Shown here: piece by piece, positions 21,007-44,209 of the stretch | Layout of the letters: the number at the start of each line of letters is the position of its first letter | Position numbering within the stretch: the first letter of the stretch is position 1 | Origin: Klenkia brasiliensis | Lineage (GTDB): Bacteria > Actinomycetota > Actinomycetes > Mycobacteriales > Geodermatophilaceae | Assembly: GCF_900100695.1 (NCBI RefSeq) | Contig: NZ_FNCF01000003.1 | Span: 124,001-188,000, forward strand | Reading direction: 5' to 3' | DNA length: 64,000 bases | Translations under genes and position numbers: made by a program | Notes under the pieces: generated by a model | The model's input: the letters and a program-made list of their open reading frames with translations, nothing else | The model's database searches: none | Told to the model about the DNA's origin: nothing

Positions 21007-22566
21007 CTACAGCGACCGGTCCCACCCGGCGAGCAGGCCGGTCAGCGCGGTGTCGGCGCCGGGCGCGCCGATGACCGCCACGCCCACCGGGTGGCCCTCC
21101 ACCAGGCCGGCGGGGGCCACCGCCGAGGGCAGCCCGCCGAGCCCGGCCAGGCAGGTCAGCCGCAGGGTTGCCCCGCGCAGCGCGGCCTTCTCCGCGGCCG
21201 GGGCGACCACCGGCGGCGCCGTGGTGCTGGTGGCCGGGGCCAGGACGGCGACGCCCTCGCCGATCCGCTCCCGCAGCGCCGTCCGGGCCTCCCCCACCAC
21301 GTCGGCGGCGTGGGCGGCCTCCCCGGCGGTGACCGTGGCGGCGTCGGCGAAGCGCTGCGCGATGCCCGGGCCCAGGGTGCCGCCGTGGGCGGTCACCCAC
21401 TCCCCGTGCGCGGCCCACGCCTGCGCGCCCTGCGCGGTGCGGAACGCGGCGAACCACGTCTCGTGCTCCTCGCCCGCCATCAACCGCTCGCTGCGCACGG
21501 GCAACCCGGACGCCGCGGCCACCGCCCGGACCAGGTCGGCCACCGGCGGGGCCGCCAGCTCCAGCAGGTCCTCGGCGAGCACCAGCTCGGTGACCGGGGC
21601 GGACGGCGGCAGCAGCAGCTGCGCCGTCCGGTGCAGCAGGCCGGCGTCGCGGGTCAGCCAGCCCACGACGTCGAAGCCGGGGGCCAGCGGCGCGACGCCG
21701 TCCAGCGGCAGCGCGCCGTGGGTGGGCCGCAGGCCGTGCAGCCCGCACCAGGACGCCGGCACCCGGATCGACCCGGCGGTGTCGGTGCCCAGCCCCAGGT
21801 CGGCCAGGCCGCGGGCGACCGCGCTGGCCGGCCCGCTGGTGGAGCCGCCGACGGCCAGGCCGGCACCCCACGGGTTGGCCGGGCTGCCGGTGTGCACGTT
21901 GGTGCCGGAGATGCTGTAGGCCAGCTCGTCGGTGGTGGCGATGCCCCGCACGTGCGCGCCGGCCGCGAGCAGCGCGGCCAGCACCGGCGCGTGCGCGGGT
22001 TCGGTGCGGGCCAGCGCGAGCTTCGCCGGGTTGCCCGCCCCCACCCGCTGCCCGGCGACGGCGACCAGGTCCTTGACCGCGACCGACACCCCGTCGAGCG
22101 GCCCGCTGCCGGTGGGTGCCACCAGCGGGGACCCGAGCACCCGCCAGGTCGTCGGGTCCTCGACCGGGTCCAGCGGCTGCGGGCCCGAGCTGACGTGCGC
22201 GACCCGGACCTGCCACCCGGCCGGCCCGCGCTCCCAGACCTGGGTCTGCAGGCCGCGGGTGCCGTCGGGGCGCCGGGTCTCCGCGACCGCGGTCGCCAGG
22301 TCGGCCGTGTGCGCCACGACGTGCAGCGCGACGACGGTGCGGGCCGGGGCGCCCCCGCGCCCGCGGCGGTAGTCGCTGATCGCGGTGTGCGAGACCAGCA
22401 CGCCGGCGGCGTCGGCCCGCAGGGTGTCCTCCCCCGGGGCGAACAGCGCGTCGAGCTCGGCCAGGTCGTCGGCGGCCAACGCCGCCTCGTACCGGGCGAC
22501 GGCCGCCCGGACCTCCTCGACGACGGTCGACGCGGTGGTGGCTGCGGTGGTGGCTGCGCCGGTCAC
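21007..22566 (-). CDS. amidase with N-terminal AtzH-like (DUF3225) domain
   Basis: The 519-residue protein is a fusion. Residues about 15-130 form a SnoaL/NTF2-like AtzH-type domain (FAPGEDTLRADAAGV; SDYRRGRGG; VWERGPAGWQVRVAHVS). Residues about 150-519 are an amidase-signature enzyme with an intact Ser-cisSer-Lys triad: VAVKDLVAVAG (Lys), GGSTSGPAS (cis-Ser) and DTAGSIRVPA (Ser nucleophile). AtzH and AtzE/AtzF-type amidases act on carboxylated ureas in cyanuric acid breakdown, so a carboxyurea or ureide substrate is plausible but unproven. The start GTG overlaps the cupin stop as GTGA. It is the last gene of a five-gene coupled operon. Confidence 0.85.
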   Translation of the reverse strand: MTGAATTAATTASTVVEEVRAAVARYEAALAADDLAELDALFAPGEDTLRADAAGVLVSHTAISDYRRGRGGAPARTVVALHVVAHTADLATAVAETRRPDGTRGLQTQVWERGPAGWQVRVAHVSSGPQPLDPVEDPTTWRVLGSPLVAPTGSGPLDGVSVAVKDLVAVAGQRVGAGNPAKLALARTEPAHAPVLAALLAAGAHVRGIATTDELAYSISGTNVHTGSPANPWGAGLAVGGSTSGPASAVARGLADLGLGTDTAGSIRVPASWCGLHGLRPTHGALPLDGVAPLAPGFDVVGWLTRDAGLLHRTAQLLLPPSAPVTELVLAEDLLELAAPPVADLVRAVAAASGLPVRSERLMAGEEHETWFAAFRTAQGAQAWAAHGEWVTAHGGTLGPGIAQRFADAATVTAGEAAHAADVVGEARTALRERIGEGVAVLAPATSTTAPPVVAPAAEKAALRGATLRLTCLAGLGGLPSAVAPAGLVEGHPVGVAVIGAPGADTALTGLLAGWDRSL

Positions 22567-23000
22567 GCGGCGGTGAGGACGGCGCCCAGCACCGCGGCGT
22601 CGGCGTCGTCCAGGAAGGCCTCCGGGCCGGTGAGGATGAGGTCGGCGAAGCCGCCGTCGTTCTCCATCACGGTGATCGTGTACAGCCGTTCGGTCGCCGA
22701 GGTGTTGACGATGTGGTGCACCGACGTCGCCGGCAGCACGATGACGTCGCCCGGGCCGAGCTCGGTGACGTGCTCGTCGCTGTGCGCCCGGGCGGTGCCG
22801 CGCAGCACCACGAAGGTCTCGGTGGAGGCCTCGTGCGAGTTGTCCGGCTGCGAGCCGCCGGGCTCCCAGATCTCCAGCACCACCGTCGTGGAGGACCCGT
22901 CGGCCGGGCCGGACAGCACGGCCAGCCGCACCGTGCGGTTGTCACCGATGTAGTGCGGGGTGATGTCGGACAGCGACTTGACGACGGGGGCGGTGGCCAT
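22563..23000 (-). CDS. cupin domain protein
   Basis: The 145-residue single-domain cupin has the two conserved motifs: NSHEASTETFVVLRGTARAH (His/Glu ligands) and PGDVIVLPATSVHHIVN (second-motif His). It could be a metal-dependent isomerase, hydrolase or oxygenase, or a small-molecule binder. Its start codon overlaps the stop codon of the isochorismatase-like gene (TGATG) and its stop codon overlaps the amidase start, so it belongs to the same translationally coupled operon. Its role in the pathway is unknown. Confidence 0.82.
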   Translation of the reverse strand: MATAPVVKSLSDITPHYIGDNRTVRLAVLSGPADGSSTTVVLEIWEPGGSQPDNSHEASTETFVVLRGTARAHSDEHVTELGPGDVIVLPATSVHHIVNTSATERLYTITVMENDGGFADLILTGPEAFLDDADAAVLGAVLTAA

Positions 23001-23779
23001 CAGGGCTCCTGGGTGTCGAGGCCGGCCCGCAGGTCGGCCGAGGTGGTGGTGAAGCCGAAGCACTGGCGCACGTTGTAGAGCGTCGCGTCGGTGCAGAAGC
23101 CCGGGGACGTGGTGCCGCACAGGTCCTCGACCAGGACGACGTCGTAGCCCAGGTTCGCCGCGTCGACGAGGGTGGCGTAGACGCACTGGTCGGTGTTCAC
23201 CCCGGCGAACAGCAGGGTGTCCACCCGCAGGTTGCGCAGCACGGCGTCCAGCACGGTGCCGGGGAACCCGCTCATCCGGTGCTTGGCGACGTGCAGGTCA
23301 CCGGGCTCGGGCACCAGTTCGTCGACCAGGCCGGCCGACCACGACCCCAGCTCGAGCACCCGGGAACCGCCGGGCAGCGGGTCGCCGATGCCGGTCGAGG
23401 CGCCGTCGGGGTCGTACACGTGCCGGACGCCGGGCGGCAGGTCGGCGCGGTCGGGCCGGTTGCCCCAGTTGAGCCAGACGACGGGGACGCCGGCGGCGCG
23501 CAGCCCCGGCAGCGCCGACGCCAGGGCCGCGATCGGCGCCGCGGCGCCGGAGACGTCCACGCCGATGGAGGCCAGCCAGCCGTCGGGGTGGCAGAAGTCG
23601 TTCTGCAGGTCCACGGCGACCAGCGCGGTGCGGGCCAGGTCGAGGGTCAGCCGCTGGGGCAGCGCGCCGATCTCCACGGGCCGCGGCTTGCGGACCGGGC
23701 GACGCAGGTCGACGTGGTCAGCGCTGAGGGTCCAGGTGTTGCGGGCCCAGGTGTTGCGGGTCCCGGTGTTGCGGGTCAA
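23000..23779 (-). CDS. isochorismatase-family cysteine hydrolase
   Basis: The 259-residue protein has the triad of isochorismatase-like amidohydrolases: Asp in VAVDLQNDFCHP, Lys in VAKHRMSGF and nucleophilic Cys in GVNTDQCVYATLVDAANLG. Related enzymes hydrolyse N-carbamoyl and ureidoacrylate amides (for example RutB, N-carbamoylsarcosine amidohydrolase), releasing ammonia and CO2. The likely start is TTG 23779, which overlaps the SDR stop as TTGA; no ATG or GTG is available before the conserved domain. The first 20 residues are encoded by a 15-bp tandem repeat and are probably dispensable. Confidence 0.87.
   Translation of the reverse strand: MTRNTGTRNTWARNTWTLSADHVDLRRPVRKPRPVEIGALPQRLTLDLARTALVAVDLQNDFCHPDGWLASIGVDVSGAAAPIAALASALPGLRAAGVPVVWLNWGNRPDRADLPPGVRHVYDPDGASTGIGDPLPGGSRVLELGSWSAGLVDELVPEPGDLHVAKHRMSGFPGTVLDAVLRNLRVDTLLFAGVNTDQCVYATLVDAANLGYDVVLVEDLCGTTSPGFCTDATLYNVRQCFGFTTTSADLRAGLDTQEP
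23731..23775 (-). repeat. three 15-bp tandem repeats inside the cysteine hydrolase N-terminus
   Basis: Three adjacent units (23731-23745, 23746-23760, 23761-23775) share CCAGGTGTTGCGGG with one or two changes. Translated on the minus strand, they give RNTGT-RNTWA-RNTWT. Length in multiples of three preserves the frame, so copy number could vary between strains without inactivating the gene. Confidence 0.85.
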
Positions 23780-24531
23780 TGCGTGACCATCCCGCCGGCC
23801 ACGTTGATCGCCTCGCCGGTCAGGTAGTCCGAGTCCGCGCTGGCCAGGAAGAGCGCGGCGCGGGCGACGTCCTCGGGCTGGCCGAGCCGGCCCAGCGGCG
23901 ACCTCGCCGACCAGCGGGCGACGTCGGCGTCGGTGCGGGTGCCGGCGCCCATCTCGGTCAGCACGTACCCGGGGCACAGGCAGGTGGCCGTGATGCCCAG
24001 CGGGCCCAGCTCCTCCGCGGCGGCCCGGGTCAGCCCGATGACCGCGGCCTTGGACGCGGCGTAGTGCGCCTGGCCCGCGCCCCCGGCCTTGCCGCCCATC
24101 GAGGCGGTGTTGACCACCTTGCCCACCACGTCGCCCGGGAAGGCCGGGGCCCGCTGCGCCACCATCGCGGTGACCGCGACCTGGGTGGTCACCAGCATCG
24201 CGCGGACGTTGACCGCGAAGACCTCGTCCCACTCGAAGGGCTCGATGTCCAGCAGCGGGGCGAAGCGCAGGATGCCGGCGTTGTTGACCAGCACGTCGAC
24301 CCCGCCGAGCGCGTCGACGGCGGTCTGGGTGGCCGCGCGGGTGGCGGCGACGTCGGCCAGGTCGACCTCCACGGCGTGCCCGCCCACCTCGGCGGCGAGC
24401 TTGCCCGCCTCCTCGGCCAGCACGTCCAGCACCGCGACCGCGGCGCCCTCGGCGGCGAAGGTGCGCACCATCGCCGCGCCGATGCCGCGCGCGCCGCCGG
24501 TGACGACGACGCGCTTGCCGGCCAGCCTCAC
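23776..24531 (-). CDS. SDR family oxidoreductase
   Basis: The 251-residue classical SDR has TGGARGIGAAMV for NAD(P), Asp in LDVLAEE (NAD preference), NNAG, Ser in NTASMGGK, YAASK as catalytic YxxxK and CPGYVLTEMG after the active site. The substrate is unknown; in this setting it may oxidise or reduce a ring-cleavage intermediate. GTG 24531 overlaps the creatininase stop (GTGA), and its stop overlaps the next gene's TTG, so it is a middle member of the coupled operon. Confidence 0.88.
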   Translation of the reverse strand: MRLAGKRVVVTGGARGIGAAMVRTFAAEGAAVAVLDVLAEEAGKLAAEVGGHAVEVDLADVAATRAATQTAVDALGGVDVLVNNAGILRFAPLLDIEPFEWDEVFAVNVRAMLVTTQVAVTAMVAQRAPAFPGDVVGKVVNTASMGGKAGGAGQAHYAASKAAVIGLTRAAAEELGPLGITATCLCPGYVLTEMGAGTRTDADVARWSARSPLGRLGQPEDVARAALFLASADSDYLTGEAINVAGGMVTH

Positions 24532-25307
24532 GCGCGCGGCCCGGGGTCGAACCGGGCGACCTCGGCGAAGGCCTCCCCCAGGTAGGTCAGCATCGCCTCG
24601 GCCTTCTCCTTGCCGTGCTCGGCGGTGGCGGTGCTGGCGTCGCCGATCACGCCGTCGGGGCCGAAGTCGTCCGAGGTCCAGCCGAAGCTGACCGACCCGC
24701 CGAAGCGCACGTGCCGGTACTCGGTCAGCTGCTCGGGCACCCAGCGCTGCGCCTGCTCCATGTCCACCAGCTCGGGGCGCAGGTGCAGCATCAGGGAGGT
24801 CTCCTCGTGCCCGCCGTGGATGCCCAGGCCGAGCTCGCTCTCCGGGCTCTTCCCGCCGTGGTCGGCCGGCAGCGAGGGGTGCATCGTGAAGGTGCGCAGG
24901 CCGTAGGCGATCCGCAGGTCGCGGGCGGCCACCTGCAGCAGCGCGGAGTTGCCGCCGTGCCCGTTGAGGAAGGCCAGCCGTCGGGCCGGGGTCTTGGTGA
25001 TCGAGGACCCCAGGTCGTGCAGCACGCTCATCAGCGTCTGCGCCGAGAGCCAGAAGGTGCCGCAGCTCCAGTGGTGCTCGTTGCTCTTGGTGTAGGCCAG
25101 CGGCGGCAGCAGCCAGAGGTCCAGCTCCTCGCCGAACTCCGCGACCGCCCGCTCGGCCATGCTCTGCGCGGTGATCAGGTCGGTGGCGACCGGCAGGTGC
25201 GGGCCGTGCTGCTCGATCGCGCCGGTCGGCAGGACCAGCACCGAGTCCGGGCCGAGCGCGTCGGCGATGGCGGGGGCGGAGAGCTCGGTGAGCAGTCGGG
25301 CGGTCAC
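24528..25307 (-). CDS. creatininase family protein
   Basis: The 259-residue protein carries the metal site of creatininase-type amidohydrolases: TGAIEQHGPHLPVATD (Glu, His, Asp), FLNGHGGN and HGGHEETSLMLHL (His/Glu). The family opens cyclic amides (creatinine) or removes formyl groups. The GTG at 25307 follows a TAGCGT -10 hexamer by eight bases, indicating a leaderless first gene of the operon, and a GlnR-like box lies 35 bases further upstream. MftE of mycofactocin is in the same family, but no other mft gene is nearby. Confidence 0.88.
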   Translation of the reverse strand: MTARLLTELSAPAIADALGPDSVLVLPTGAIEQHGPHLPVATDLITAQSMAERAVAEFGEELDLWLLPPLAYTKSNEHHWSCGTFWLSAQTLMSVLHDLGSSITKTPARRLAFLNGHGGNSALLQVAARDLRIAYGLRTFTMHPSLPADHGGKSPESELGLGIHGGHEETSLMLHLRPELVDMEQAQRWVPEQLTEYRHVRFGGSVSFGWTSDDFGPDGVIGDASTATAEHGKEKAEAMLTYLGEAFAEVARFDPGPRA

Positions 25308-25342
25308 GCCCGCGGACGCTAGGACCGGGTCGTTGCAGGGCG

Positions 25343-25358
25343 GTGACGGTCGCGTTCC
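25343..25358 (-). promoter_or_regulatory. GlnR-like box in the creatininase/amidohydrolase divergent promoter
   Basis: On the minus strand the sequence reads GGAAC-gcgacc-GTCAC, the GNNAC-N6-GNNAC (AC-N9-AC) arrangement of actinobacterial GlnR sites. It lies 35 bp from the leftward creatininase start and 43 bp from the rightward amidohydrolase start, so it could control both. Confidence 0.5.
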
Positions 25359-25401
25359 AGCCGACACCTGCCCGGAACACACAGCTGCCAGGGTCGGTCC
25401 C

Positions 25402-26691
25402 GTGCTGGACGTGACCGGGGCCGTGGCCGTGCTGGGATCGACCGCCCGGGTGGTCGCCTGCGGGGACGACGGGCGGATCGGCGGGTTCACCGCCGCGGGG
25501 GGCGAGGTGCTGGACGCCACCGGCTGCGTGGTGACACCGGGCCTGGTCAACGCCCACCACCACCTGCTCCAGACCGCGTTCCGCACGCTGCCCGGCACCC
25601 GCGGCGTCCCGATGGCGCAGTGGCTGCCGACCATGGCCGCGGCGTACGGGGCGGTCGGCGTCGACCCCGAGCTGGCGCACGCCGCGGCGTCCGCCGGGTT
25701 GGCCGAGGCGCTGCTGTGCGGGGTGACCACGGTCGCCGACCACCACCTGACCTGGCCGGCGTCGACCGGCGACGGGGTGGGCATCGCCACGGCCGCGGCC
25801 ACGGCGGCCCGCGAGCTGGGCGCGCGGCTGGTCTTCGTGCGCGGTTCGGCCCGGGACGACGCGGCCACCGCCGCCGCATCGGCGGACGCGATCGCCGCGG
25901 CGCTGGTGCCCCCTGGTGGGGTGACCGAGGACGGCGTGCTGCAGGTCGCCGTCGGCCCGGCCGGGGTGCACAGCGACGGCCCGGACACCTTCCGGCTCAT
26001 GGCCGAGGTGGCCGCCGCGCGCGGTCTGCGCCGCCGGACCCAGGCCAACGAGCAGGTGGACGTCGACGTCGCGGCGCAGCGGTACGGACGCCGTCCGCTG
26101 GAGCTGCTGGAGGAGTGGGGCTGGCTGGCCCCCGACGTCACGCTGGCCCACCTGTGCGGGGTCACGGACGCGGAGATCGCGCGGCTGGCCGGTGCAGGGG
26201 TGACCGCGACGCACGCGCCGGGGTGCGACCTGCCGATGGGGTGGGGCATCGCACCGGTGGCCGCGCTGGCCGATGCCGGGGTGCCGGTGGGGCTGGGCAC
26301 CAGCGGCGGCGGGTCCAACGACGCGGGCCACCTGCTGGCCGACGCCCGGCTGGCCATGCAGGTGGCGCCGCTGGTCGGGCGGGTCGTGCCCGCCGAGGAG
26401 GTGCTCGGGTTCGCCACCCGCGGGTCGGCCGACGGGCTGGGCCGGCCGGACCTGGGCCGGCTGGAGGTGGGCGCCCGGGCCGACCTGGTCTGCTGGGACG
26501 TCACCGGGGTGGCCGACGCCGGGGTGGCCGACCCGGTGGCGGGGCTGCTGTGGGGCTCCCCCGGCCGGCGCCCGAAGCACGTCGTGGTCGGCGGTCGGGT
26601 GGTCGTGCGGGACGGCCGGCTGGTCACCCGCGAGGAGACCGACGTCGCCACCGACCTGCGCCGCCTGCTCGCCTCCCGGTCGGCGCGCTGA
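25402..26691 (+). CDS. amidohydrolase of the 8-oxoguanine deaminase/AtzB type, with altered active site
   Basis: The 429-residue protein follows the TrzA/AtzB/8-oxoguanine deaminase pattern: PGLVNAHHHLLQT (HxH of strand 1), VADHHLTWP and ALLCGVTT. However, where active relatives have HTHLAE on strand 5 it has RTQANE, and where they have GVDGSASND (catalytic Asp of strand 8) it has GTSGGGSND. Thus one metal-binding His and the catalytic Asp appear replaced by Gln and Ser. It may be catalytically different or non-catalytic. GTG 25402 follows CAGGGT by seven bases (leaderless). Confidence 0.82.
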   Translation: MLDVTGAVAVLGSTARVVACGDDGRIGGFTAAGGEVLDATGCVVTPGLVNAHHHLLQTAFRTLPGTRGVPMAQWLPTMAAAYGAVGVDPELAHAAASAGLAEALLCGVTTVADHHLTWPASTGDGVGIATAAATAARELGARLVFVRGSARDDAATAAASADAIAAALVPPGGVTEDGVLQVAVGPAGVHSDGPDTFRLMAEVAAARGLRRRTQANEQVDVDVAAQRYGRRPLELLEEWGWLAPDVTLAHLCGVTDAEIARLAGAGVTATHAPGCDLPMGWGIAPVAALADAGVPVGLGTSGGGSNDAGHLLADARLAMQVAPLVGRVVPAEEVLGFATRGSADGLGRPDLGRLEVGARADLVCWDVTGVADAGVADPVAGLLWGSPGRRPKHVVVGGRVVVRDGRLVTREETDVATDLRRLLASRSAR

Positions 26692-26888: not shown

Positions 26889-27872
26889 TCAGCCGACCGG
26901 CTCGGCGTAGCTGTTGACCAGCACGTACTCCTTCATGAACTGCTCCTGCCAGTCGTAGGCGGTGATCGGCAGGTAGCGGGCGCCCTCGGCGCCGACCATC
27001 GTCTCCACGGGGGCGACGACCTGGTCGATGTTGGGCAGGAAGAACATCGCGATCGACTGCCGCTGCGCCGACGTGTCCGGGCCGGCCACCACCCGGTGCA
27101 CGGTGGCCGGGAAGCGTCCGTTGGTCCACCGCGACATCAGGTGCCCGATGTTGATCACGAAGGCGTCCTCCCGCAGGGGCACGGTGACCCACCCGGCCGC
27201 GGCGTCGCGCACCTGCAGGCCCTCGTAGCTGCCGCGCTGGTGCAGCACGGTCAACCCGCCGGAGTCCGCGTGCGGGTTCAGGATCACCTCCTCGTGGTAG
27301 TCGTCGTCCACCGGCTGCGGCGGGTAGAGGTTGACGCTGAAGAGCGTGACGTCCTTGCTGAACGGCTCGGCGAAGAAGTGCCGCGGCAGGCCCATGGCCA
27401 GGGCGAACAGCCCCATGAGCGTGCTCGCGAGCGACCGGGTCGCGGCGTCGTAGGCCTTCCAGGTGGTGCGGAAGCCGGGCAGCTGCTCGGGCCAGACGTT
27501 GGGCACGAAGTAGTCCGGGTGCCCACCCACCGCGTCGTCGGCCTCGGCGGCGGCCAGGTCGTCGTACTTCATGAACTGCAGGGCCCGGTTCAGCACGCGG
27601 CCGCGCTCGTCGATCTCCTCGAACAGCCCCCGCGAACTGGCCCGCGGCCGGACCAGGGCCCGCCGCTCCGCCTCGGGCATCTCGGCGATCCGGTCCATCG
27701 CGGCGTAGGCGGCGTCGACGACCGCGGGGTCGACGCGGTGGCCCACCACCTGCAGGAAACCGACCTCGGTCAGGGCGTGGCGCAGCTGCGCGACGCAGGC
27801 GGCCAGGGCCGCGGGGTCGTCGCCGAAGGCCGGGGACACGTCGACGACGGGGATGCTGGGGGTGCTGGACAC
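26889..27872 (-). CDS. 2-oxoglutarate/Fe(II) dioxygenase (DIOX_N/IPNS-like)
   Basis: The 327-residue protein has the non-haem oxygenase N-terminal domain (IPVVDVSPAF; VGFLQVVGHRV) and the double-stranded beta-helix core with iron ligands HxD in NPHADSGGLTVLHQ and His in PATVHRVV, plus Arg-x-Ser in QRQSIAMFF for 2-oxoglutarate. Relatives hydroxylate or demethylate small molecules, including nucleobases such as thymine 7-hydroxylase. GTG 27872 is preceded by GAGGAAGG. It is divergent from the FAD-oxidoreductase gene, with a GlnR-like box in between, and it stands alone on its transcript. Confidence 0.85.
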   Translation of the reverse strand: MSSTPSIPVVDVSPAFGDDPAALAACVAQLRHALTEVGFLQVVGHRVDPAVVDAAYAAMDRIAEMPEAERRALVRPRASSRGLFEEIDERGRVLNRALQFMKYDDLAAAEADDAVGGHPDYFVPNVWPEQLPGFRTTWKAYDAATRSLASTLMGLFALAMGLPRHFFAEPFSKDVTLFSVNLYPPQPVDDDYHEEVILNPHADSGGLTVLHQRGSYEGLQVRDAAAGWVTVPLREDAFVINIGHLMSRWTNGRFPATVHRVVAGPDTSAQRQSIAMFFLPNIDQVVAPVETMVGAEGARYLPITAYDWQEQFMKEYVLVNSYAEPVG

Positions 27873-37159: not shown

Positions 37160-38074
37160 TCAGCGGTCGCGGGACTGGTCGTACCAGCTGCCGACGACGA
37201 GCTTGGACAGCCAGCCGAAGAGGAAGAACACCGCGAAGCCCAGCGCGGCGGTGACCACGATGGTGAAGAACAGCGGGGCGCCCTGCAGGCGGGAGCTGAA
37301 GTTCGACAGCAGGATGCCCAGGCCGGGCTCGCCCTGCTTGAAGAACAGGTCGCCGACGATCGCACCGACCACCGAGAGGCCGGCGGAGATGCGGAACCCG
37401 GCGAAGATGGCCGGCAGGGCCGCGGGCAGCTGCAGCTTCAGCAGCCGGGTGAGGCGGCTGGCCTTGTGCAGGGTGAACAGCTCGTGGTGCCCGCGGTCCA
37501 CCGACTGGATGCCGAACAGGGTGTTCGACACGATCGGGAACAGCGCGATCATCACGCAGACGATGACCCGCGACGGGAAGCCGAAGCCGAACCAGAACCC
37601 GATCAGCGGCACCAGGGCCAGGATCGGGATGCACTGCAGCGCGACGGCGTAGGGGTACAGCGAGCTCTCGACGGCCTTGCTCTGGCTCATCGCGATCGCC
37701 CACAGCATGCCGATCACGATCGCGATCGCCAGGCCGGTGAAGGTGACCACGATGGAGCGCCCCAGGGCCGGCCACACCTTCTCGGTGATGGTGGGGTCCA
37801 GCAGCGCGTCGGTGATCAGCGTGTGCGGGGCCGGCATGAGGAACCGCCGGCCCGGGTCCAGCACGAGGTAGGTGATGGCGTACCAGACCCCGATGAGGGC
37901 GGCGAACACGACGACCGGCAGGGCCAGGTTCATCGCCCTGCGGCCGCGGCGGCGCCGGACGACGGGCGCCGGGGTCGTGCCGGTGGCGACCGCCTCGGCG
38001 GTCGGGCTCTCCAGGGTGGAGGTCACGGCGGTCTCCTCGGAGGGGGTGGTCTGACCGGGCAGGGTGGCGGTCAC
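37160..38074 (-). CDS. ABC transporter permease (SsuC/ThiX type)
   Basis: The 304-residue protein has a roughly 50-residue cytoplasmic N-terminus, then six transmembrane segments. The coupling-helix motif is visible as LFTLHKASRLTRLLKLQLPAALPAIFAGFRISAGL (the EAA loop, about residues 200-235). It belongs to the BPD_transp_1 family used by nitrate/taurine/pyrimidine importers. GTG 38074 overlaps the ATPase stop codon as GTGA. Confidence 0.9.
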   Translation of the reverse strand: MTATLPGQTTPSEETAVTSTLESPTAEAVATGTTPAPVVRRRRGRRAMNLALPVVVFAALIGVWYAITYLVLDPGRRFLMPAPHTLITDALLDPTITEKVWPALGRSIVVTFTGLAIAIVIGMLWAIAMSQSKAVESSLYPYAVALQCIPILALVPLIGFWFGFGFPSRVIVCVMIALFPIVSNTLFGIQSVDRGHHELFTLHKASRLTRLLKLQLPAALPAIFAGFRISAGLSVVGAIVGDLFFKQGEPGLGILLSNFSSRLQGAPLFFTIVVTAALGFAVFFLFGWLSKLVVGSWYDQSRDR

Positions 38075-38883
38075 GAGTGGCCCTCGCGCAGCGCGTGGGA
38101 GACCTCGCCGGCGAGCTTGGCGAACTCGGGGGTGAACCGGAGCTCCGGTGTGCGGTCCGGGCCGAAGGGCACCTGGAAGGACTCCACGATGTGCCCCGGC
38201 CGCCCGCTCATGACCAGCACGCGGGTCGACATGTAGACCGCCTCGGACACCGAGTGCGTGATGAACAGCGCCCCGAAGCCCTTGGTCACGAACAGCCGGA
38301 TCAGCTCGTCGTTGAGGCGCTCGCGGGTGATCTCGTCCAGCGCGCCGAAGGGCTCGTCGAAGAGGAACAGGTCCGGGTCGAGGGTGAGCGAGCGGGCCAG
38401 CGAGGCGCGCATCTTCATGCCGCCGGACAGCGCCCGGGGCAGCTTCTTCTCGTGGCCCCGCAGCCCGACCAGCTCGATGGCGTCCAGGGCGGCCTGGTTG
38501 GTGGCAGTCTTGCTCATGCCGTGCAGCTCGGCGAGCAGCTCGACGTTCTTCTTGACGCTGCGCCAGGGCAGCAGGGTGGCGTCCTGGAAGACGTAGCCGA
38601 TGCGCTGCGCGTCGACCCGGGCGGTGCCGGCGCTGGCGGCGTCCAGGCCCGAGGCGATCCGCAGCAGGGTGGACTTGCCGCAGCCGGACGGGCCGACGAC
38701 GGTGACGAACTCACCGCGGTCGATGGTCAGGTGCACGCCCTCGAGCGCGACGGTGCCGTCGGGGAACTGGCGGGCCACGTCCGTGAACTCCAGGACCCGG
38801 GTGGCGGGGGCCGTCGTCGCGGTGGACGGGGCGGCGGGCGCAGGTGCGCTCACGGTCACCTCCGGTGCGTTCTGCGGGGGCAC
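38071..38883 (-). CDS. ABC transporter ATP-binding protein (SsuB/TauB type)
   Basis: The 270-residue ATPase has Walker A GPSGCGKST, Q-loop VFQDATLLPW, signature LSGGMKMRASLARSL, Walker B DLFLFDEPFGALDE and switch His in ITHSVSEAVY. It is the energy subunit of the importer with the following permease and binding protein. The start at GTG 38883 gives a Pro/Ala-rich leader of about 30 residues; a later GTG (VTVSAPAP) is possible. A GlnR-like box lies 73 bases upstream. Confidence 0.92.
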   Translation of the reverse strand: MPPQNAPEVTVSAPAPAAPSTATTAPATRVLEFTDVARQFPDGTVALEGVHLTIDRGEFVTVVGPSGCGKSTLLRIASGLDAASAGTARVDAQRIGYVFQDATLLPWRSVKKNVELLAELHGMSKTATNQAALDAIELVGLRGHEKKLPRALSGGMKMRASLARSLTLDPDLFLFDEPFGALDEITRERLNDELIRLFVTKGFGALFITHSVSEAVYMSTRVLVMSGRPGHIVESFQVPFGPDRTPELRFTPEFAKLAGEVSHALREGHS

Positions 38884-38956: not shown

Positions 38957-38972
38957 GTTTCGCCTGCGTCTC
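38957..38972 (-). promoter_or_regulatory. GlnR-like box upstream of the ABC importer operon
   Basis: On the minus strand the sequence reads GAGAC-gcaggc-GAAAC, a GNNAC-N6-GAAAC element in the 117-bp gap between the cytosine-deaminase-like gene and the ATPase gene. The first half-site deviates (GAGAC rather than GTNAC), so it is the weakest of the five. Confidence 0.4.
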
Positions 38973-39000
38973 CCGTCGGTGAACGCGACCGACTGCTTGG

Positions 39001-40236
39001 TCACGACTGGGCCACGACCCTCCCCGGGAACACCCGCTGCACCTGCGTGCTCGCGACCACCCGTCCGCGGGAGACCACGACGCGGTCGGTGCCGGCCCCG
39101 GCGACCGCGGCGTCCAGGCTCTCGGCGCGCACAGCCAGGAACTCCGCGACCGACCCGGGGACGGCGGTGGGCACGGGCAGGCCCATGCAGCGGCGGGCAC
39201 CGGCGCTCACGGCGTCCCAGGCCTCCCGGGTGGACAGGTGCCCGGAGGTGACCAGCAGCGACGCCGCCTCGCACGCGTCGGCCCGGCCCATCGGGTTGAA
39301 CGGGTCGCGCAGGTTGTCCCCGCCGGCGCCGAGCACGGCGCCGGCGTCCAGCAGCGCCCGGACGGCGGTCAGCCCCCGCGGGGTGGCCACGGTGGACTCC
39401 CGGCCCTGCAGGTACAGGTTGGTCTGCGGCAGCGCGACGACGCCGACGCCGGCGGCGGCCACCTCGGCGGAGGTGGCCCGGGCGACCTCGAGCGGGTGCA
39501 CGCCGAGGGAGACGCAGTGGCTGGCGGTGGCGCCGTGGCCGAAGCCGGTGGCCCGCACCCGCTGGGCCAGGTGCAGCAGGCCCTGCGCGGTCGGGTCCAG
39601 CGTCTCGTCGGTGTGCAGGTCCAGCGGCAGGCCGCGGCGCTGCGCGACGTCGAAGGAGAGGTCCAGACCGGCGGTGCGGTCGGGCCACATGTGCGGCGCG
39701 CCGCCCACGAGGTCGACGCCCAGGTCGACCGCCTCCTCCAGCAGCCGGCCGTTGTCCCGGGCGTCCTCCGGGGTCCACGGCGCGCTGCACAGGGCCACCA
39801 CCTGGACGTCGACCAGGCCGGCGAGGGCGTCGCGGACCTCCAGCAGCGCGCGGACGTGCCGGAGGCCGGTGTGCGCGCCCAGGTCGGCGTGGGTGCGGAT
39901 CGCGGTGGTGCCGTTGGCCAGGTACTCGTGCGCGGCGCGGGTGGCCCGGTCGACCAGGTCGGCGTGGGTGAAACCGGCCGAGATGGCCCGGATCGCCTCG
40001 ATCGCGCCGGCCAGGTCGCCGGTGCGGTTGGGTGCCCGGTGGCTGGTGAGCGCCTTGTCCAGGTGGGCGTGCGGCTCGGCCGGGGCGGGCAGCAGGTGGA
40101 ACCCGGCGAGCTCGCGCACCTCGTCGTCCGGCGCGGGGGCCAGCACCGGGGCGACGTCGGCGACGGTGCCGTCGGCGCAGCGGACGTCGACGACGTCGCC
40201 GTCGACGGTGGTGACCGAGCGCAGCAGCAGGCTCAT
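39001..40236 (-). CDS. cytosine deaminase-like amidohydrolase
   Basis: The 411-residue protein resembles CodA-type deaminases: HxH in EPHAHLDKAL, RTHADLG, His/Glu in LDLHTDETLDP, His in ASHCVSLG and Asp in GGDNLRDPFNPMGRAD. All expected metal and catalytic residues are present. Cytosine, isoguanine, creatinine or another cyclic imine could be the substrate. ATG 40236 overlaps the stop of the MTHFR-like gene (ATGA), so it is translated from the same leftward operon as the reductase gene. Confidence 0.87.
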   Translation of the reverse strand: MSLLLRSVTTVDGDVVDVRCADGTVADVAPVLAPAPDDEVRELAGFHLLPAPAEPHAHLDKALTSHRAPNRTGDLAGAIEAIRAISAGFTHADLVDRATRAAHEYLANGTTAIRTHADLGAHTGLRHVRALLEVRDALAGLVDVQVVALCSAPWTPEDARDNGRLLEEAVDLGVDLVGGAPHMWPDRTAGLDLSFDVAQRRGLPLDLHTDETLDPTAQGLLHLAQRVRATGFGHGATASHCVSLGVHPLEVARATSAEVAAAGVGVVALPQTNLYLQGRESTVATPRGLTAVRALLDAGAVLGAGGDNLRDPFNPMGRADACEAASLLVTSGHLSTREAWDAVSAGARRCMGLPVPTAVPGSVAEFLAVRAESLDAAVAGAGTDRVVVSRGRVVASTQVQRVFPGRVVAQS

Positions 40237-41231
40237 CCGAGGGCTCTCCCGATCTCCGCGAGGGCCGCGGCGGTGGTGGGTTCGGTGCCGGGTGCGGCGA
40301 CCCCGGACAGGTCGACCCCGCGCACCCCGGGGACGGCGAGGTAGGCCTCCGCCAGCTCGACGGCCGCGGCGACCCCGGCGCGGCGGGGGTCGCGGGCGGA
40401 CTCGATGGCGGCCAGGTAGCCGGCGGGCAGCCGCAGCCCGGTGAAGCGGCGCAGCTCGGCGACCGAGCCGGGATCGGTGGCCACCGCGACGCAGGCGACG
40501 AAGGGCACGTCGGCGCCCGCGTCGGTGGCCGCGGCGACGAAGTCGGCCAGCTCGGCCGGGCCGCCGGCGTGGTCGACGAAGCAGACCTCGGCGCCGGCCC
40601 GCACCTTCTCCACCAGCCGTTGCGGGCGGCGGTCGGCGGGCGGGCCGTGCGGGGTCTCCCCCACCGAGACCAGCAGGCCGGCGGCGCGGGAAGCGGCGGC
40701 CAGCTGCGTGGAGTCCAGGTCGAAGACCGGCTGGGCGTCGGGCCGGTCGCCGGTGGCGGTGTGGTCGCCGGTCACGCAGTGCACCGCGCCGACGCCGAGG
40801 TCGGCCAGCGCGGCCAGCTCGCCCTCCAGCGCGACCCGGTTGCGGTCCCGGCAGTTCAGCCCCTGCCAGACGGGGACGCCGCGGGACTGCACCAGCGCGG
40901 CCCGGTAGGCCGGCGGGAACTGCACCCGGGCGGCCGCGTGGTCGCCCAGCAGGACGGCGTCCACCCGGCCGGCGACCAGGTCGGTGCAGCGCTCCAGCGA
41001 CCCGCGGGACAGCGCGACGGCGGGCAGGTCGGCGACCACCACGGGCCGCTGCCGCATGAGGGCGAGCAGGCGCGGCTCGGGTCCGGGACGGCTCTCCCGC
41101 TCACGGGGCCAACGCACCGTGGGCAGCGGCAGGAAGGCGCACGGGTCGGGGGCGACCTCGCAGCTGCCGTCCTCGGCCACCCCGCCGCACGGCCCGTAGG
41201 TCATCGCCTTCGGGCAGGCGGGGGCGCTCAC
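40233..41231 (-). CDS. MTHFR-like protein with N-terminal Cys-rich MTHFR_C domain
   Basis: The 332-residue protein opens with CPKAMTYGPCGGV, then DGSCEV and a further Cys, the pattern of the so-called MTHFR C-terminal domain (PF12225 type), here at the N-terminus. It continues into a barrel resembling methylenetetrahydrofolate reductase (VPVWQGLNCRDRNRVALEGE; VHCVTGDHTATGDRP; VCFVDHAGG; VPFVACVAV). It may carry or reduce a one-carbon unit on folate, which would fit methyl groups released by the Rieske enzyme. GTG 41231 starts 10 bp after the ferredoxin reductase stop. Confidence 0.78.
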   Translation of the reverse strand: MSAPACPKAMTYGPCGGVAEDGSCEVAPDPCAFLPLPTVRWPRERESRPGPEPRLLALMRQRPVVVADLPAVALSRGSLERCTDLVAGRVDAVLLGDHAAARVQFPPAYRAALVQSRGVPVWQGLNCRDRNRVALEGELAALADLGVGAVHCVTGDHTATGDRPDAQPVFDLDSTQLAAASRAAGLLVSVGETPHGPPADRRPQRLVEKVRAGAEVCFVDHAGGPAELADFVAAATDAGADVPFVACVAVATDPGSVAELRRFTGLRLPAGYLAAIESARDPRRAGVAAAVELAEAYLAVPGVRGVDLSGVAAPGTEPTTAAALAEIGRALG

Positions 41232-41241
41232 CGGGACGCGG

Positions 41242-42198
41242 TCACAGGTCGAGCACCAGCCGGGGGCCGGCGGCGCGGGACACGCAGACCATCATCGCGG
41301 TGCCGTCGGCCTGCTCGCCGGGGCTGAGCACGGAGTCGCGGTGCTCGACCTCGCCCTCCAGCACCGGCGTCTCGCAGGTGCCGCAGGTGCCCACCCGGCA
41401 GGAGGACAGCACATCGACCCCCTCGGCGGCCAGGGCGTCGAGCACCGAGGTGCCGGGCTCGACGACGACGGTCGTGCCGGTGAGCGCCAGCTCCACCTCG
41501 AAGGGGTCCGGCCACACGGGGGCACCGAACTCCTTGGCCTCGAACCGCTCCACGTGCAGGGTGCCCGCCCAACCCGCGGCGGCGGCCTCGAGCGCGTCGA
41601 GCAGCTTCGCCGGCCCGCAGGCGTAGACGGCGGTGGCCGCGTCGACGTCCAGCGCCGCCACGTCGAGCCGGTCGCCCTCGTCGCCGACGTGCAGCCGCAC
41701 CCGGCCGGGGTGGGCGGCGGCCAGCTCGGCGGCGAAGGCCATCCGCGCCCGCGAGCGGCCGGCGTACTCCAGGGTCCACTCCGCCCCGGCCGCGTCGGCG
41801 GCGGCGAGCATCGCGCGCAGCGGGGTGATGCCGATGCCACCGGCCACGAAGACGTACCGGGTGCCGGGGGTGACCTCGAACGGGAAGTGGTTGCGCGGCC
41901 CGCGCACCCGCAGCCGCTGGCCCACCTCGACCTCGTCGTGCAGCGCCCGCGACCCTCCCCCGCCGTCGGCCTCGCGCAGCACCGCGACCCGCCAGGTGGC
42001 CCGGTCGCCGACGTCCCCGCACAGCGAGTACTGCCGCTCCAGACCCGGGCGCACGAGGAGGTCCAGGTGCGAGCCGGGCGTCCACGCGGGCAGGTCGCGA
42101 CCGTTGTGGGAGACCAGGTCCAGGCCCAGCACGCCGTCGGCGAGCGGGGTGCGACCGGCCACCACCAGGTCGCGTTCGACGTCGGAGAAGAAGCTCAC
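41242..42198 (-). CDS. VanB/PDR-type oxygenase reductase
   Basis: The 318-residue protein has the order typical of phthalate-dioxygenase-reductase-type proteins: flavin domain (RQYSLCGD), NAD domain (FVAGGIGITPLRAML; YACGPAKLLDAL) and a C-terminal plant-type [2Fe-2S] ferredoxin (SSCRVGTCGTCETPVLEGE). It should pass electrons from NAD(P)H to the Rieske oxygenase encoded 12 kb away. GTG 42198 is six bases after AGGA. It heads the leftward operon and is divergent from the FAD-binding oxidoreductase, sharing a promoter region with a GlnR-like box. Confidence 0.9.
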   Translation of the reverse strand: MSFFSDVERDLVVAGRTPLADGVLGLDLVSHNGRDLPAWTPGSHLDLLVRPGLERQYSLCGDVGDRATWRVAVLREADGGGGSRALHDEVEVGQRLRVRGPRNHFPFEVTPGTRYVFVAGGIGITPLRAMLAAADAAGAEWTLEYAGRSRARMAFAAELAAAHPGRVRLHVGDEGDRLDVAALDVDAATAVYACGPAKLLDALEAAAAGWAGTLHVERFEAKEFGAPVWPDPFEVELALTGTTVVVEPGTSVLDALAAEGVDVLSSCRVGTCGTCETPVLEGEVEHRDSVLSPGEQADGTAMMVCVSRAAGPRLVLDL

Positions 42199-42248
42199 CG
42201 GCCGATCCTGCACACGTCGGGCCCGCCGGGTGCAGATGACGCAGAAGG

Positions 42249-42264
42249 GTCACACGGATGTAAC
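42249..42264 (+). promoter_or_regulatory. GlnR-like box in the reductase/FAD-oxidoreductase divergent promoter
   Basis: The sequence GTCAC-acggat-GTAAC lies 23 bases upstream of the rightward GTG at 42288 and 50 bases from the leftward GTG at 42198. It has the AC-N9-AC spacing. It closely resembles the element at 27975 in reversed half-site order. Confidence 0.55.
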
Positions 42265-42287
42265 CGCGGTGCGGTTCCGTCCACGGC

Positions 42288-43622
42288 GTGACGACGACGG
42301 CCGCCCCCACCGCCCTGTCCCAGCTGGAGACCGAGCTCGCCGCGCTGCTCGGCGAGCGCAACGTCAGCAGCGAGCTGCGGGTGCGCGAGCGGGTGTCGGT
42401 CGACGGGGCGCGGATGAGCCCGATCATCAGCGAGCTGCTGCCCCTGGGGGTCGCCGACCTGGTCGCCTTCCCCACCACCGCCGAGCTCGCCGCCCAGGCG
42501 GTGGCCGCCGCCGTCCGGCTGGGCGTGCCGGTCACCCCGCGCGGCAAGGGCACCGGCAACTACGGCCAGGGCATCCCGATGGCCGGCGGCCTGGTGCTGG
42601 ACCTCTCCCGCGCCCGCGCGGTCGTGGAGGTCACCGACGGCCTGCTCACCGCCGAGGCGGGGACGCCGATGGTGACCTGCGAGCGGGCCGCGCAGGCCAC
42701 CGGGCAGCAGCTGTGGATGTACCCGTCCACCGTGCAGAGCTCGCTCGGCGGGTTCCTGGCCGGCGGGTCGGGTGGCACCGGCAGCATCGTGCACGGCACC
42801 AACGACGCCGGCTTCGTCGCCGCGCTGGACGTCGTGCACGCCGACGGCTCCGGCGACCTGGTGCACGTCGAGGGCGAGGAGGCGCAGGCCTACGTGCACA
42901 ACTACGGGACGGCGGGGGTCATCGCCCGCGCCACCGTGCGGTTGGAGCCGCTGCAGGAGTGGGTGGGCTTCTACGCCAGCTGCGACGACTTCCGCACCGC
43001 GCAGGCCGTGATGGTCGCCCTGGGGGAGCTGGAGCCCACGCCCCGGCTGGTCTCCGCCGACACCCCCGAGATCACCGCGGCGCTGCCCGAGGACCCCGCC
43101 TTCCCGGCCGGGCGGGCCAGCGTGCGCGGCATCCTGGAGGCCTCCACCGTCGAGGCCGCCCGCGCGGTCGTGGCGGCCGCGGGCGGGCGGGTCGAGGACG
43201 TGCGCGAGGGCCCGCAGGTGCCGCTGAGCCTGAGCGTGCTCAGCTACAACCACCCCATCGAGTGGCTGCAGAAGAGCGCCCCGGGCGTGTACTTCCACCT
43301 CGAGGTCGGCGGCCAGGCGCTGGTCGACCGGGTCGACGAGGTGCACCAGGTGTTCGAGGGCGCGCTGCTGCACAACGAGGTCGGCCACTCCGGTCCGATC
43401 GGCATGCTGGCCGGGGTCTACCGCAGCCCGGAGCAGGTGCGCGAGGGCATCGCCGCGCTGGAGGCCCTCGGCGTGGGCGTGCACGACCCGCACCAGTGGA
43501 ACGTGGACTTCCAGCTGGCCCGCACGGTCGAGACCGCCCGGCGCACCGACCCCCGCGGCCTGCTCAACCCGGGCAAGCTGAACCCCGACTACGGCGGGCC
43601 CACCAAGGGCGCCGTGCGGTGA
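42288..43622 (+). CDS. FAD-binding (PCMH/VAO-type) oxidoreductase
   Basis: The 444-residue protein has the PCMH FAD domain: ELLPLGVADLVAFPTTAELAAQ, PVTPRGKGTGNYGQ, LDLSRAR and GGFLAGGSGGTGSIVHGTN. It ends with DPRGLLNPGKL, as glycolate-oxidase- and lactate-dehydrogenase-type flavoproteins do. The substrate is probably a hydroxy acid or a ring carbinol. GTG 42288 lies 23 bases downstream of the GlnR-like box, suggesting a leaderless transcript. The stop overlaps the next start (GTGA). Confidence 0.87.
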   Translation: MTTTAAPTALSQLETELAALLGERNVSSELRVRERVSVDGARMSPIISELLPLGVADLVAFPTTAELAAQAVAAAVRLGVPVTPRGKGTGNYGQGIPMAGGLVLDLSRARAVVEVTDGLLTAEAGTPMVTCERAAQATGQQLWMYPSTVQSSLGGFLAGGSGGTGSIVHGTNDAGFVAALDVVHADGSGDLVHVEGEEAQAYVHNYGTAGVIARATVRLEPLQEWVGFYASCDDFRTAQAVMVALGELEPTPRLVSADTPEITAALPEDPAFPAGRASVRGILEASTVEAARAVVAAAGGRVEDVREGPQVPLSLSVLSYNHPIEWLQKSAPGVYFHLEVGGQALVDRVDEVHQVFEGALLHNEVGHSGPIGMLAGVYRSPEQVREGIAALEALGVGVHDPHQWNVDFQLARTVETARRTDPRGLLNPGKLNPDYGGPTKGAVR

Positions 43623-44209
43623 TCGACCTGCAGGCCGACGCCGACCCCGGCGACGACCCGTGGGTGCTGGTCGCCGACTGGCTGCCCGCCGACGACGACC
43701 CCGAGCGGCCCCAGGCGGTGCTGGCCACCGCGGGCACCGACGGCTACCCCGACGCGCGCACCGTGCTGGTCAGCGCGGCCGACCGCACCGGGTTCGCGTT
43801 CCACACCCACCGGTCCAGCCGCAAGGTCACCGAGATCGCCGTCCTCCCCCGGGCGGCGCTGGTGCTCACCTGGCCCGGGTTCACCCGCCAGCTGGTCGTG
43901 CGGGGCGACGCCGTCCCCGACACCGAGGCGTCCGCGGCGCGGGTGTGGGCGGCCCGGTCGGACCACCTGCGGCGGCTGGCCTGGCTCAACGACGACGACC
44001 TGGCCGCGCGCGACCGCGCCGGCCGGGTGGCGGGCTGGGCCGCCGACGTGCGCACCGACGGCGGGTCGCCGCCGGCGCCGTCCTGGGTCGGGTTCCGGGT
44101 GGCCCCCGTGGAGCTGACGTTCTGGGCCGGCGGGGCGGACACCGCCAGCCGCCGGCTGCAGTACCGCCGCGGCCAGGCGGGCTGGACCCGCCGCTGGCTG
44201 GCCGGCTGA
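43619..44209 (+). CDS. pyridoxamine 5'-phosphate oxidase-like flavoprotein
   Basis: The 196-residue protein resembles PdxH/PPOX: AVLATAGTDGYPDARTVLVSAADRTGFAFHTHRSSRK (FMN-binding strand order), LVLTWPGFTRQLVVRG and a C-terminal RLQYRRGQAGWTRRWLAG in place of the usual LxP end. It may be an FMN-dependent oxidase or reductase for a pathway intermediate rather than true PNPO. It is translationally coupled to the FAD oxidoreductase and closes the catabolic locus. Confidence 0.82.
   Translation: MIDLQADADPGDDPWVLVADWLPADDDPERPQAVLATAGTDGYPDARTVLVSAADRTGFAFHTHRSSRKVTEIAVLPRAALVLTWPGFTRQLVVRGDAVPDTEASAARVWAARSDHLRRLAWLNDDDLAARDRAGRVAGWAADVRTDGGSPPAPSWVGFRVAPVELTFWAGGADTASRRLQYRRGQAGWTRRWLAG

Follow-up and report, generated by a model that had tools for sequence, protein, structure and literature searches.

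A conserved gene cluster of Klenkia brasiliensis with a putative pterin-catabolic core and ties to purine-degradation genes

Which nitrogen heterocycle would a bacterium break down with its own importer, several oxygenases and a long series of C-N hydrolases? The question is raised by positions 21007-44209 of a 64,000-nucleotide stretch of the Klenkia brasiliensis genome (contig NZ_FNCF01000003.1, positions 124,001 to 188,000; hereafter the window), where gene calling by codon usage gives 21 genes (contig C7 of the 4.45-Mb genome). An initial annotation of this DNA had proposed a candidate catabolic system there without naming the heterocycle. Our comparisons support a conserved system for an N-heterocycle, with import, oxidation and stepwise C-N hydrolysis, and they narrow the heterocycle towards pterins, because the cluster protein FAD4 groups with a flavin oxygenase of folate catabolism. 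We read the cluster of this soil-type actinobacterium as pterin catabolism for nitrogen that feeds purine catabolism, with add-on genes, and put the odds of this reading slightly above even, at about 0.55.

Compared with solved structures using phmmer, FAD4 best matches Protein Data Bank (PDB) entry 6v42 (e-value 4.9e-43, 150.9 bits), the next match standing at 3.6e-9 and 39.3 bits. Its predicted model (mean predicted local distance difference test, pLDDT, 82.9) places the same entry at Foldseek rank 1 (2.8e-30, template-modelling (TM) scores of 0.82/0.79; next 5.9e-22), and both in sequence and in fold D-lactate/glycolate oxidases are thus further from FAD4 than 6v42 is. The title of this PDB entry is "flavin oxygenase with cofactor bound involved in folate catabolism". 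The FAD4 of a Rhizobium operon matches 6v42 almost end to end (9.2e-216, residues 6-463) and that of a Comamonadaceae operon at 4.5e-113; because of these matches, the solved enzyme very probably originates from this type of operon. The motif RGxGTGNYGQ is invariant in all 15 FAD4 sequences compared, and the window shares with the 6v42-like Rhizobium operon, as companions of FAD4, the importer, a CodA-like amidohydrolase (AH3) and a creatininase-family protein.

These genes belong to a core that recurs across Actinobacteria and consists of the three importer genes (substrate-binding protein, SBP; permease; ATPase), AH3, the creatininase-family protein, FAD4 and a second amidohydrolase, AH1. 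Its simplest layout, AH3-ATPase-permease-SBP-FAD4-creatininase-AH1 in one direction, is found in Nocardioides luteus (L110; loci bear L numbers and genomes G numbers). We collected the best 80 of at least 483 confirmed AH1 relatives, obtained by scanning genome contigs with an AH1 alignment; these loci are mostly from Microbacteriaceae and include Klenkia, Modestobacter, Microbacterium, Curtobacterium, Agromyces, Herbiconiux, Gordonia, Rhodococcus, Nocardioides, Amycolatopsis and Kineosporia. All seven core genes are present in 41 of the 80 and at least six in 50, with homology defined as at least 38% identity and more than 100 bits, weaker relatives being uncounted. Such presence counts are lower bounds, as the gene caller was trained on the window and called AH1 itself in 71 of the 80 loci, and absence may be overstated where a locus is a short contig. 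Among 296 genomes of the class (K. brasiliensis included), 22 contain FAD4 (at 1e-60) and five contain AH1 (at 1e-100), and all five carry FAD4 on the same contig as AH1, 4-17 kb away from start to start; SBP is found at 65% identity or more in 16 genomes, again counting K. brasiliensis. The two samples overlap (L090/G007, L091/G006, L092/G027, L093/G286 and L096/G016) and are not independent.

Within the genus, G001 and G006 keep all 21 genes in order (with the gene of the CrtI/CrtO-like oxidoreductase FADcrt split in two pieces in G006), and G003 and G005 keep 19, the 2-oxoglutarate/Fe(II) oxygenase (2OG) and a close luciferase-like flavin monooxygenase (LLM) being missing; in G007, 18 cluster genes and an 81-residue LLM fragment lie within the 20 kb fetched. 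This synteny rules out a chance assembly of the block. Not every member of the genus carries the cluster: in G002, nothing comes close to the Rieske oxygenase (best 2e-13), to SBP (best 3e-4) or to FAD4 (none at 1e-15). Elsewhere in the family, genomes of other genera (G218, G020, G286, G009, G237, G027, G194) keep a reduced set that comprises the creatininase-family protein, AH1, the amidohydrolase AH2, which is regular in this family of genomes, the importer, AH3, a VanB-type reductase, FAD4 and a PPOX-type flavoprotein. In other families of the order, the importer, FAD4, AH3, creatininase and AH1 are kept in G053, where the SBP frame is broken by a stop codon, and in G047, and the importer, FAD4 and AH3 in G135.

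The core without AH1 is also found in Proteobacteria: in Rhizobium leguminosarum, on plasmid pRL12 of R. johnstonii (strain 3841), in Alloyangia, Nitratireductor, Roseateles, Klebsiella and Pantoea, on a Comamonadaceae plasmid and, in part, in Ruegeria. Identities between the window and seven of these operons (Roseateles and pRL12 left aside) are 28-32% for FAD4, 32-36% for AH3 and 35-44% for the creatininase-family protein. FAD4 matches on Rhizobium plasmids amount to 141 records, the neighbourhoods of a few of which were inspected. A Klebsiella plasmid (L173/L177) bears, divergent from its core, a second set made of a binding protein, a COG0402-like amidohydrolase and a 2OG oxygenase, distant relatives (24-31%) of the window's SBP, AH1/AH2 and 2OG.

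The importer and AH3 are the two places where the families named by the initial annotation, otherwise backed by Pfam and NCBIfam, need qualification. SBP has no hit in either collection; its predicted model (pLDDT 90.1) is closest in Foldseek to 3ix1, the formylaminopyrimidine-binding protein ThiY (2.3e-15, TM 0.59/0.75), followed by 4nmy, a thiamin-binding protein, and then by TauA and Thi5, and its lipobox cysteine, C23, is invariant. This fold, together with the presence of an LLM enzyme and of a RutB/BiuH-like hydrolase, could indicate a thiamin-type or other pyrimidine as the substrate. We hold this to be very unlikely: the isochorismatase-type hydrolase stays far below the NCBIfam cut-offs of RutB (131 of 378 bits) and BiuH (122 of 370 bits), it and LLM are accessory genes found in 3 of 80 loci each, and the relationship of FAD4 would be left unexplained. 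The Rut pyrimidine pathway itself was rejected on the same RutB score.

AH3 also enters the case for pterins as the substrate. It has no Pfam hit and cytosine-deaminase-type NCBIfam hits, with CodA as the best match in the PDB and AtzC also matched. Its metal site is intact (H56, H58, H208, H240 and D307, invariant in 13 of 13 sequences), and the motif HxHLDK occurs in all 29 operon-type AH3 sequences and in none of three controls, which have HLDA or HMDA. AH3-type genes are present in the Rhizobium, Alloyangia, Nitratireductor, Klebsiella, Pantoea, Ruegeria, Comamonadaceae and Roseateles operons. RidA, a member of a family formerly named endoribonuclease, is encoded by the gene next after AH3 in Klebsiella and Pantoea. 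According to the excerpted text of a 2022 Variovorax paper, the pterin deaminase gene of that organism is followed by a conserved "endoribonuclease" gene, and the Variovorax deaminase and Arad3529 are placed near predicted cytosine and creatinine-type deaminases (PMC9513972). We read this "endoribonuclease" as RidA. Pterins are suggested as the substrate because the FAD4-6v42 relationship, the SBP fold, the AH3 features and this parallel all point together.

The second part of the reading, the connection with purines, comes from the gene order of other genomes. Genes for xanthine dehydrogenase (XDH) or XdhC are found in 34 of the 80 AH1 loci, the fused dehydrogenase itself in 19. The K. brasiliensis genome has XDH-type genes at 7 places (8 rows, two being pieces of one), about 0.03 per 21 kb, a density that gives a scale and not a test, the loci being related and nearly all XDH-bearing ones belonging to Microbacteriaceae. 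In Curtobacterium pusillum (L202), the series AH3-ATPase-permease-SBP-FAD4-creatininase-PPOX continues with uricolytic genes, in the order allantoinase, formamidase, AtzH-amidase, class V aminotransferase, allantoate amidohydrolase, a regulator (named by eye), XdhC and XDH. In another Curtobacterium (L197), AH1, XdhC, XDH, allantoinase, the same hydrolases as in L202, 2-oxo-4-hydroxy-4-carboxy-5-ureidoimidazoline (OHCU) decarboxylase, 5-hydroxyisourate (HIU) hydrolase and urate oxidase stand in a row. Among the proteins tested from these two loci, allantoinase, allantoate amidohydrolase, OHCU decarboxylase, HIU hydrolase and urate oxidase score over their NCBIfam cut-offs, and XdhC, XDH, the aminotransferase, the formamidase and the amidase below them; the names of aminotransferases, M20 hydrolases, regulators, OHCU and HIU proteins in the other uricolytic stretches were given by eye or by BLAST to our own set. 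In Luteimicrobium (L203, L169), the genes for formamidase, AtzH-amidase, uricase and allantoinase end about 2 kb from the core, the gap being unread. Next to the creatininase gene, Nitratireductor has a ureidoglycolate lyase and Rhizobium a molybdenum hydroxylase set.

Copies of the formamidase, 62-71% identical, are found in all eight hand-chosen genomes. In seven of these eight stretches the AtzH-amidase lies beside the formamidase, and in six (all except L198 and L199) uricolytic genes are close by, which suggests that such neighbourhoods explain the presence of both genes in the window. A class V aminotransferase (model-checked in L202, by eye elsewhere) lies beside allantoate amidohydrolase, formamidase and AtzH-amidase in L197, L202 and L203. 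This arrangement suggests a ureidoglycine-to-oxalurate route, with formamidase and AtzH-amidase as candidates for oxalurate breakdown.

The same gene order would also suit a purine- or urate-related substrate, such as a methylxanthine or an 8-oxo compound, the cluster then being a side branch of purine catabolism in which the Rieske oxygenase and its reductase would N-demethylate the compound. The window does encode a Rieske enzyme, and 8-oxoguanine deaminase is the best NCBIfam model for AH1 and the second best for AH2, below cut-off in both cases. We nevertheless find this explanation unlikely, as FAD4 groups with the folate-catabolism enzyme, AH1 is without the strand-5 histidine of TrzN and no protein with a Rieske motif was called in 78 of the 80 loci (scan by regular expression on called proteins of 250-520 amino acids).

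AH1 has TrzN as its closest PDB relative; Gln214 is aligned to the strand-5 metal-binding His of TrzN and Thr300 to a TrzN Thr at the usual Asp position, the residue that other members of this type carry. Both residues are invariant in 14 of 14 sequences (the window and 13 orthologues). AH1 is presumably active, since it is strongly conserved, and perhaps it is not a standard zinc deaminase. AH2 contains the usual metal-ligand motifs (alignment of nine sequences). The creatininase-family protein has the ExH..D and NGHGGN motifs; assignments to creatinine amidohydrolase proper (101 of 235 bits) and to the mycofactocin protein MftE (128 of 172 bits) were rejected on the NCBIfam cut-offs. Because creatininase-type enzymes open and close lactam rings, this protein is a chemically reasonable candidate for the tetrahydroxypteridine cycloisomerase (Enzyme Commission number EC 5.5.1.3) of McNutt and co-workers, which reportedly converts tetrahydroxypteridine to xanthine-8-carboxylate, then decarboxylated to xanthine. 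In the excerpted text of a 2007 survey, EC 5.5.1.3 stands among orphan activities (PMC1940265). A pterin-to-purine funnel might then exist in which the creatininase-family protein turns an oxidised pterin into xanthine-8-carboxylate and AH1 performs the next step, a decarboxylation or a C-N cleavage; we offer this as a speculative and rather improbable assignment. The position of the core beside xanthine and urate genes would follow from it, as the cycloisomerase role would link pterins to xanthine.

Which protein would supply FAD4 with electrons? The Rieske oxygenase, which carries CxH-CxxH and DxxHxxxxH motifs, and the VanB-type reductase had been taken as a pair, and this pairing is now doubtful. 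The reductase occurs in 44 of the 57 loci that have at least five core genes, and the 56 loci that contain it yielded no called protein with a Rieske motif. G004 has reductase and FAD4 side by side at C12:672931-675317, divergent as in the window, and the Rieske and importer genes on C20; Klebsiella and Pantoea have the reductase and FAD4 and no Rieske gene in the stretches read. An FMN-reductase-type gene lies beside FAD4 in Rhizobium, and a gene annotated as NAD(P)H-dependent oxidoreductase does in Alloyangia and Comamonadaceae. The reductase thus probably serves FAD4, in view of the loci without Rieske proteins, the G004 pairing and the Rhizobium arrangement. Several observations go the other way: paralogues of the reductase (56-58% identical) adjoin other Rieske genes in G002, G004 and G016, a Rieske gene accompanies the core in Nitratireductor, G275 and G166, and Luteimicrobium carries, about 15 kb from its core, a separate pair of Rieske and reductase genes (34% and 37%). 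The reductase is also missing from 13 of the 57 loci, and neither reductase type is found in the Ruegeria and Roseateles stretches. Rieske and reductase genes stay together in Klenkia and G275. Probably the reductase does not belong to the Rieske enzyme alone and the Rieske enzyme is not its only partner; in Klenkia, one reductase may serve both oxygenases. If the reading is right, this suggests that a VanB-type reductase beside a Rieske gene need not be the partner of the Rieske enzyme, or may have other partners as well.

The 23-kb block had also been presented as one candidate catabolic system. The whole block is indeed kept in genomes of the genus; it is composite, with core and accessory genes. 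Rieske, 2OG, LLM, FADcrt and amidase2 were rejected as core members (2, 2, 3, 4 and 2 of 80 loci, respectively), and the Rieske homologues of G004 (70%) and G016 (68%) have other neighbours and lie outside the core, the distance to the importer being about 70 kb and 77 kb, respectively. Together with the separate contig of FAD4 and the reductase in G004, and with the uricolytic neighbourhoods of formamidase and AtzH-amidase, this could mean that neighbouring clusters with different substrates were brought together and that the single pathway is illusory. This seems to us decidedly unlikely, given that the block is kept with at most two genes missing in G001, G003, G005 and G006, that the core is kept across families and phyla, and that the sub-blocks rejoin in the purine catabolism of Curtobacterium; the neighbourhood comparison that had been proposed as a check did not break the core into several unrelated clusters. 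From these comparisons, the picture of one 23-kb pathway fits the locus less well than that of a catabolic core of the pterin type to which accessory oxygenases and hydrolases of the purine end have been added.

For the pterin reading, we infer the following order of steps. The ABC importer would take up pterins that folate or pterin pigments have set free, and AH3 would strip the 2-amino group, giving a compound of the lumazine type. FAD4, with electrons probably from the VanB-type reductase, would oxygenate the pyrazine ring or its C6 substituent, after which the creatininase-family enzyme would open, or open and reclose, the lactam ring. The product would join purine catabolism (xanthine, urate, allantoin, allantoate, oxalurate), and formamidase, AtzH-amidase and perhaps the isochorismatase-type enzyme would release the last nitrogens. 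FADcrt, the Rieske oxygenase, 2OG and LLM may catalyse accessory oxidative steps, perhaps on other pterin-like substrates.

A number of observations weigh against this reading. The pterin label comes from one PDB title and from family resemblance, no paper on 6v42/6v43 having been found in the open-licence literature, and the FAD4 of the window is only 27% identical to 6v42. FAD4 is absent at 1e-15 from the whole genome of G016, which has the importer, AH3, creatininase and AH1, and from G166 (88% complete), where much of the core is present, and in G004 it is on a different contig from the importer. TauA and SsuA are likewise similar to SBP in fold. An unrooted AH3 tree (32 hand-chosen rows, with no characterised pterin deaminase among them and L099 dropped at the coverage filter) splits into three separate groups: actinobacterial AH3, the deaminases of the proteobacterial operons, and the CodA-type controls. 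A Rid-family gene is present in all eight proteobacterial stretches (pRL12 not counted apart) and absent from the 21 genes of the window, which also include no gene of the carboxypeptidase G type. The XDH linkage is nearly confined to Microbacteriaceae, and in K. brasiliensis uricase is encoded on a different contig, with over 50 kb between the cluster and the closest XDH-type gene of its own contig.

The cluster is of a kind known in part, through pterin deaminase and the folate flavin oxygenase, and no description of the gene set as a whole was found in the open-licence literature. The closest system is that of 6v42/6v43 and the Rhizobium operon (also on pRL12), with the same FAD4 family and motif, importer, CodA-like amidohydrolase and creatininase-family companion; it differs by its FMN-reductase-type gene, where actinobacteria mostly have the VanB-type reductase and often PPOX, and the actinobacterial form adds AH1. 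Folic acid degradation in Variovorax sp. F1 likewise uses, in the excerpted text, a cytosine/creatinine-type amidohydrolase on the pterin ring, together with a carboxypeptidase G, an enzyme not encoded among the 21 genes (PMC9513972), the likeness being one of description. The uricolytic pathway (urate oxidase, HIU hydrolase, OHCU decarboxylase, allantoinase and allantoate amidohydrolase) adjoins core genes in L197 and L202 and shares with the window its formamidase and AtzH-amidase relatives. The EC 5.5.1.3 cycloisomerase would tie pterins to xanthine, in line with the gene order, its assignment to the creatininase-family gene being a proposal. With s-triazine degradation (Atz/Trz), the window has in common the TrzN relative AH1, the AtzC match of AH3, an AtzH-like domain and a BiuH-like hydrolase; it differs by the strand-5 residue of AH1, and the s-triazine pathway was rejected, as no cyanuric acid hydrolase (AtzD) family is among the listed Pfam and NCBIfam hits of the 21 proteins.

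The block of named gene families is real according to gene calls, family scans (Pfam on 21 of 21 proteins; NCBIfam on 20, the PPOX protein left out) and synteny, and its genes are given in Table 1. The initial annotation counted about nineteen genes; its list amounts to 21 if the importer is counted as three, and 21 are called. It also held that most junctions overlap by 1-4 bases, which applies to same-strand junctions (10 of 15) and not to junctions overall (10 of 20), the others having gaps of 10-197 bases, apart from one convergent pair that overlaps by 23. Expected motifs were matched by regular expression in the Rieske, 2OG, reductase, creatininase and amidase2 proteins; the residues expected of the isochorismatase protein were spotted by eye, as was a variant, GGSTSG, in the AtzH-amidase, which had no match by regular expression. 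A 15-base tandem repeat (3.3 copies, 23728-23777) lies at the start of the isochorismatase gene, the N-terminus being repeated, and makes its start codon uncertain. The MTHFR-like gene is also present in G053, G166, G004, G016 and G275.

Table 1. Genes of the cluster at 21007-44209 of the window, with their recurrence among the 80 AH1 loci and supporting family matches (bits are NCBIfam scores)
Gene product	Coordinates	Strand	Recurrence	Family evidence
AtzH/HpxZ-like domain fused to amidase (AtzH-amidase)	21007..22566	-	accessory	PF11533 + PF01425; PRK08310-type 341 of 391 bits; HpxZ 75 of 135
Small cupin	22563..23000	-	accessory, 4/80	PF07883; weak likeness to ureidoglycine aminohydrolase (25 bits, cut-off 350)
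Isochorismatase-type amidohydrolase, RutB/BiuH-like	23000..23779	-	accessory, 3/80	PF00857
SDR dehydrogenase	23776..24531	-	accessory, 19/80	PF13561
Creatininase-family metallo-amidohydrolase	24528..25307	-	core	PF02633, 3e-66
AH1, TrzN/8-oxoguanine-deaminase-type amidohydrolase	25402..26691	+	core in Actinobacteria	PF01979
2OG, 2-oxoglutarate/Fe(II) oxygenase	26889..27872	-	accessory, 2/80	PF03171, PF14226
FADcrt, CrtI/CrtO-like FAD oxidoreductase	28013..29572	+	accessory, 4/80	PF01593; CrtO 201 bits (cut-off 1000)
Rieske oxygenase, VanA-type	29659..30759	+	accessory, 2/80	PF00355, PF19112
AH2, COG0402-type amidohydrolase	30756..32123	+	11/80	PF01979
FmdA-type formamidase/acetamidase relative	32120..33199	+	accessory	PF03069; FmdA 66 bits (cut-off 500)
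Amidase2, amidase-signature hydrolase	33177..34589	-	accessory, 2/80	PF01425, 2.5e-83
LLM, luciferase-like flavin monooxygenase	34586..35758	-	accessory, 3/80	PF00296
Importer substrate-binding protein (SBP)	35862..37037	-	core	ThiY-like predicted fold
ABC permease	37160..38074	-	core	PF00528
ABC ATPase	38071..38883	-	core	PF00005
AH3, CodA-like amidohydrolase, pterin-deaminase candidate	39001..40236	-	core	
MTHFR-like protein	40233..41231	-	occasional companion, 6/80	PF02219, 5e-8
Fer2red, VanB/PDR-type flavin + 2Fe-2S reductase	41242..42198	-	near-core, alongside FAD4	PF00111, PF00175
FAD4, flavin oxygenase of the 6v42 (folate catabolism) family	42288..43622	+	core	
PNPOx/PPOX split-barrel flavoprotein	43619..44209	+	frequent FAD4 companion, 24/80	PF01243, PF10590

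The flanking genes look unrelated to the cluster: a Kup K+ transporter (19005-21005) on the left and, on the right, a DUF7507 protein and CNNM proteins (Pfam). The adjoining right-hand protein (44216-46111, minus strand; DUF7507 + DUF7927 + DUF11) is 78% identical in G001, as compared with 87-98% for the cluster proteins. Elsewhere in the window, a cyclic di-AMP riboswitch (Rfam RF00379, 53.8 bits; 61695-61856, minus strand) lies upstream of a gene at 60861-61637 (minus strand), the Kup transporter being in the same window. Positions 1-2000, with a G+C content of 0.648 where the remainder of the window lies at 0.70-0.79, encode a PIN-like protein (just below the Pfam cut-off) and one protein without Pfam hit.

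How bacteria mineralise the pterin ring of folate is an open question; in the excerpted text of the 2022 Variovorax paper, genes are assigned as far as deaminopteroate and the later steps are left open (PMC9513972). If the reading proposed here is true, the core would provide a widely spread gene set for pterin breakdown, with an importer, a deaminase, a flavin oxygenase and a ring-opening enzyme; it would also put forward a candidate protein for an orphan activity and connect the turnover of pterins with that of purines. Should the tentative funnel also hold, folate and pterin nitrogen would enter uric-acid catabolism in soil and plant-surface bacteria.

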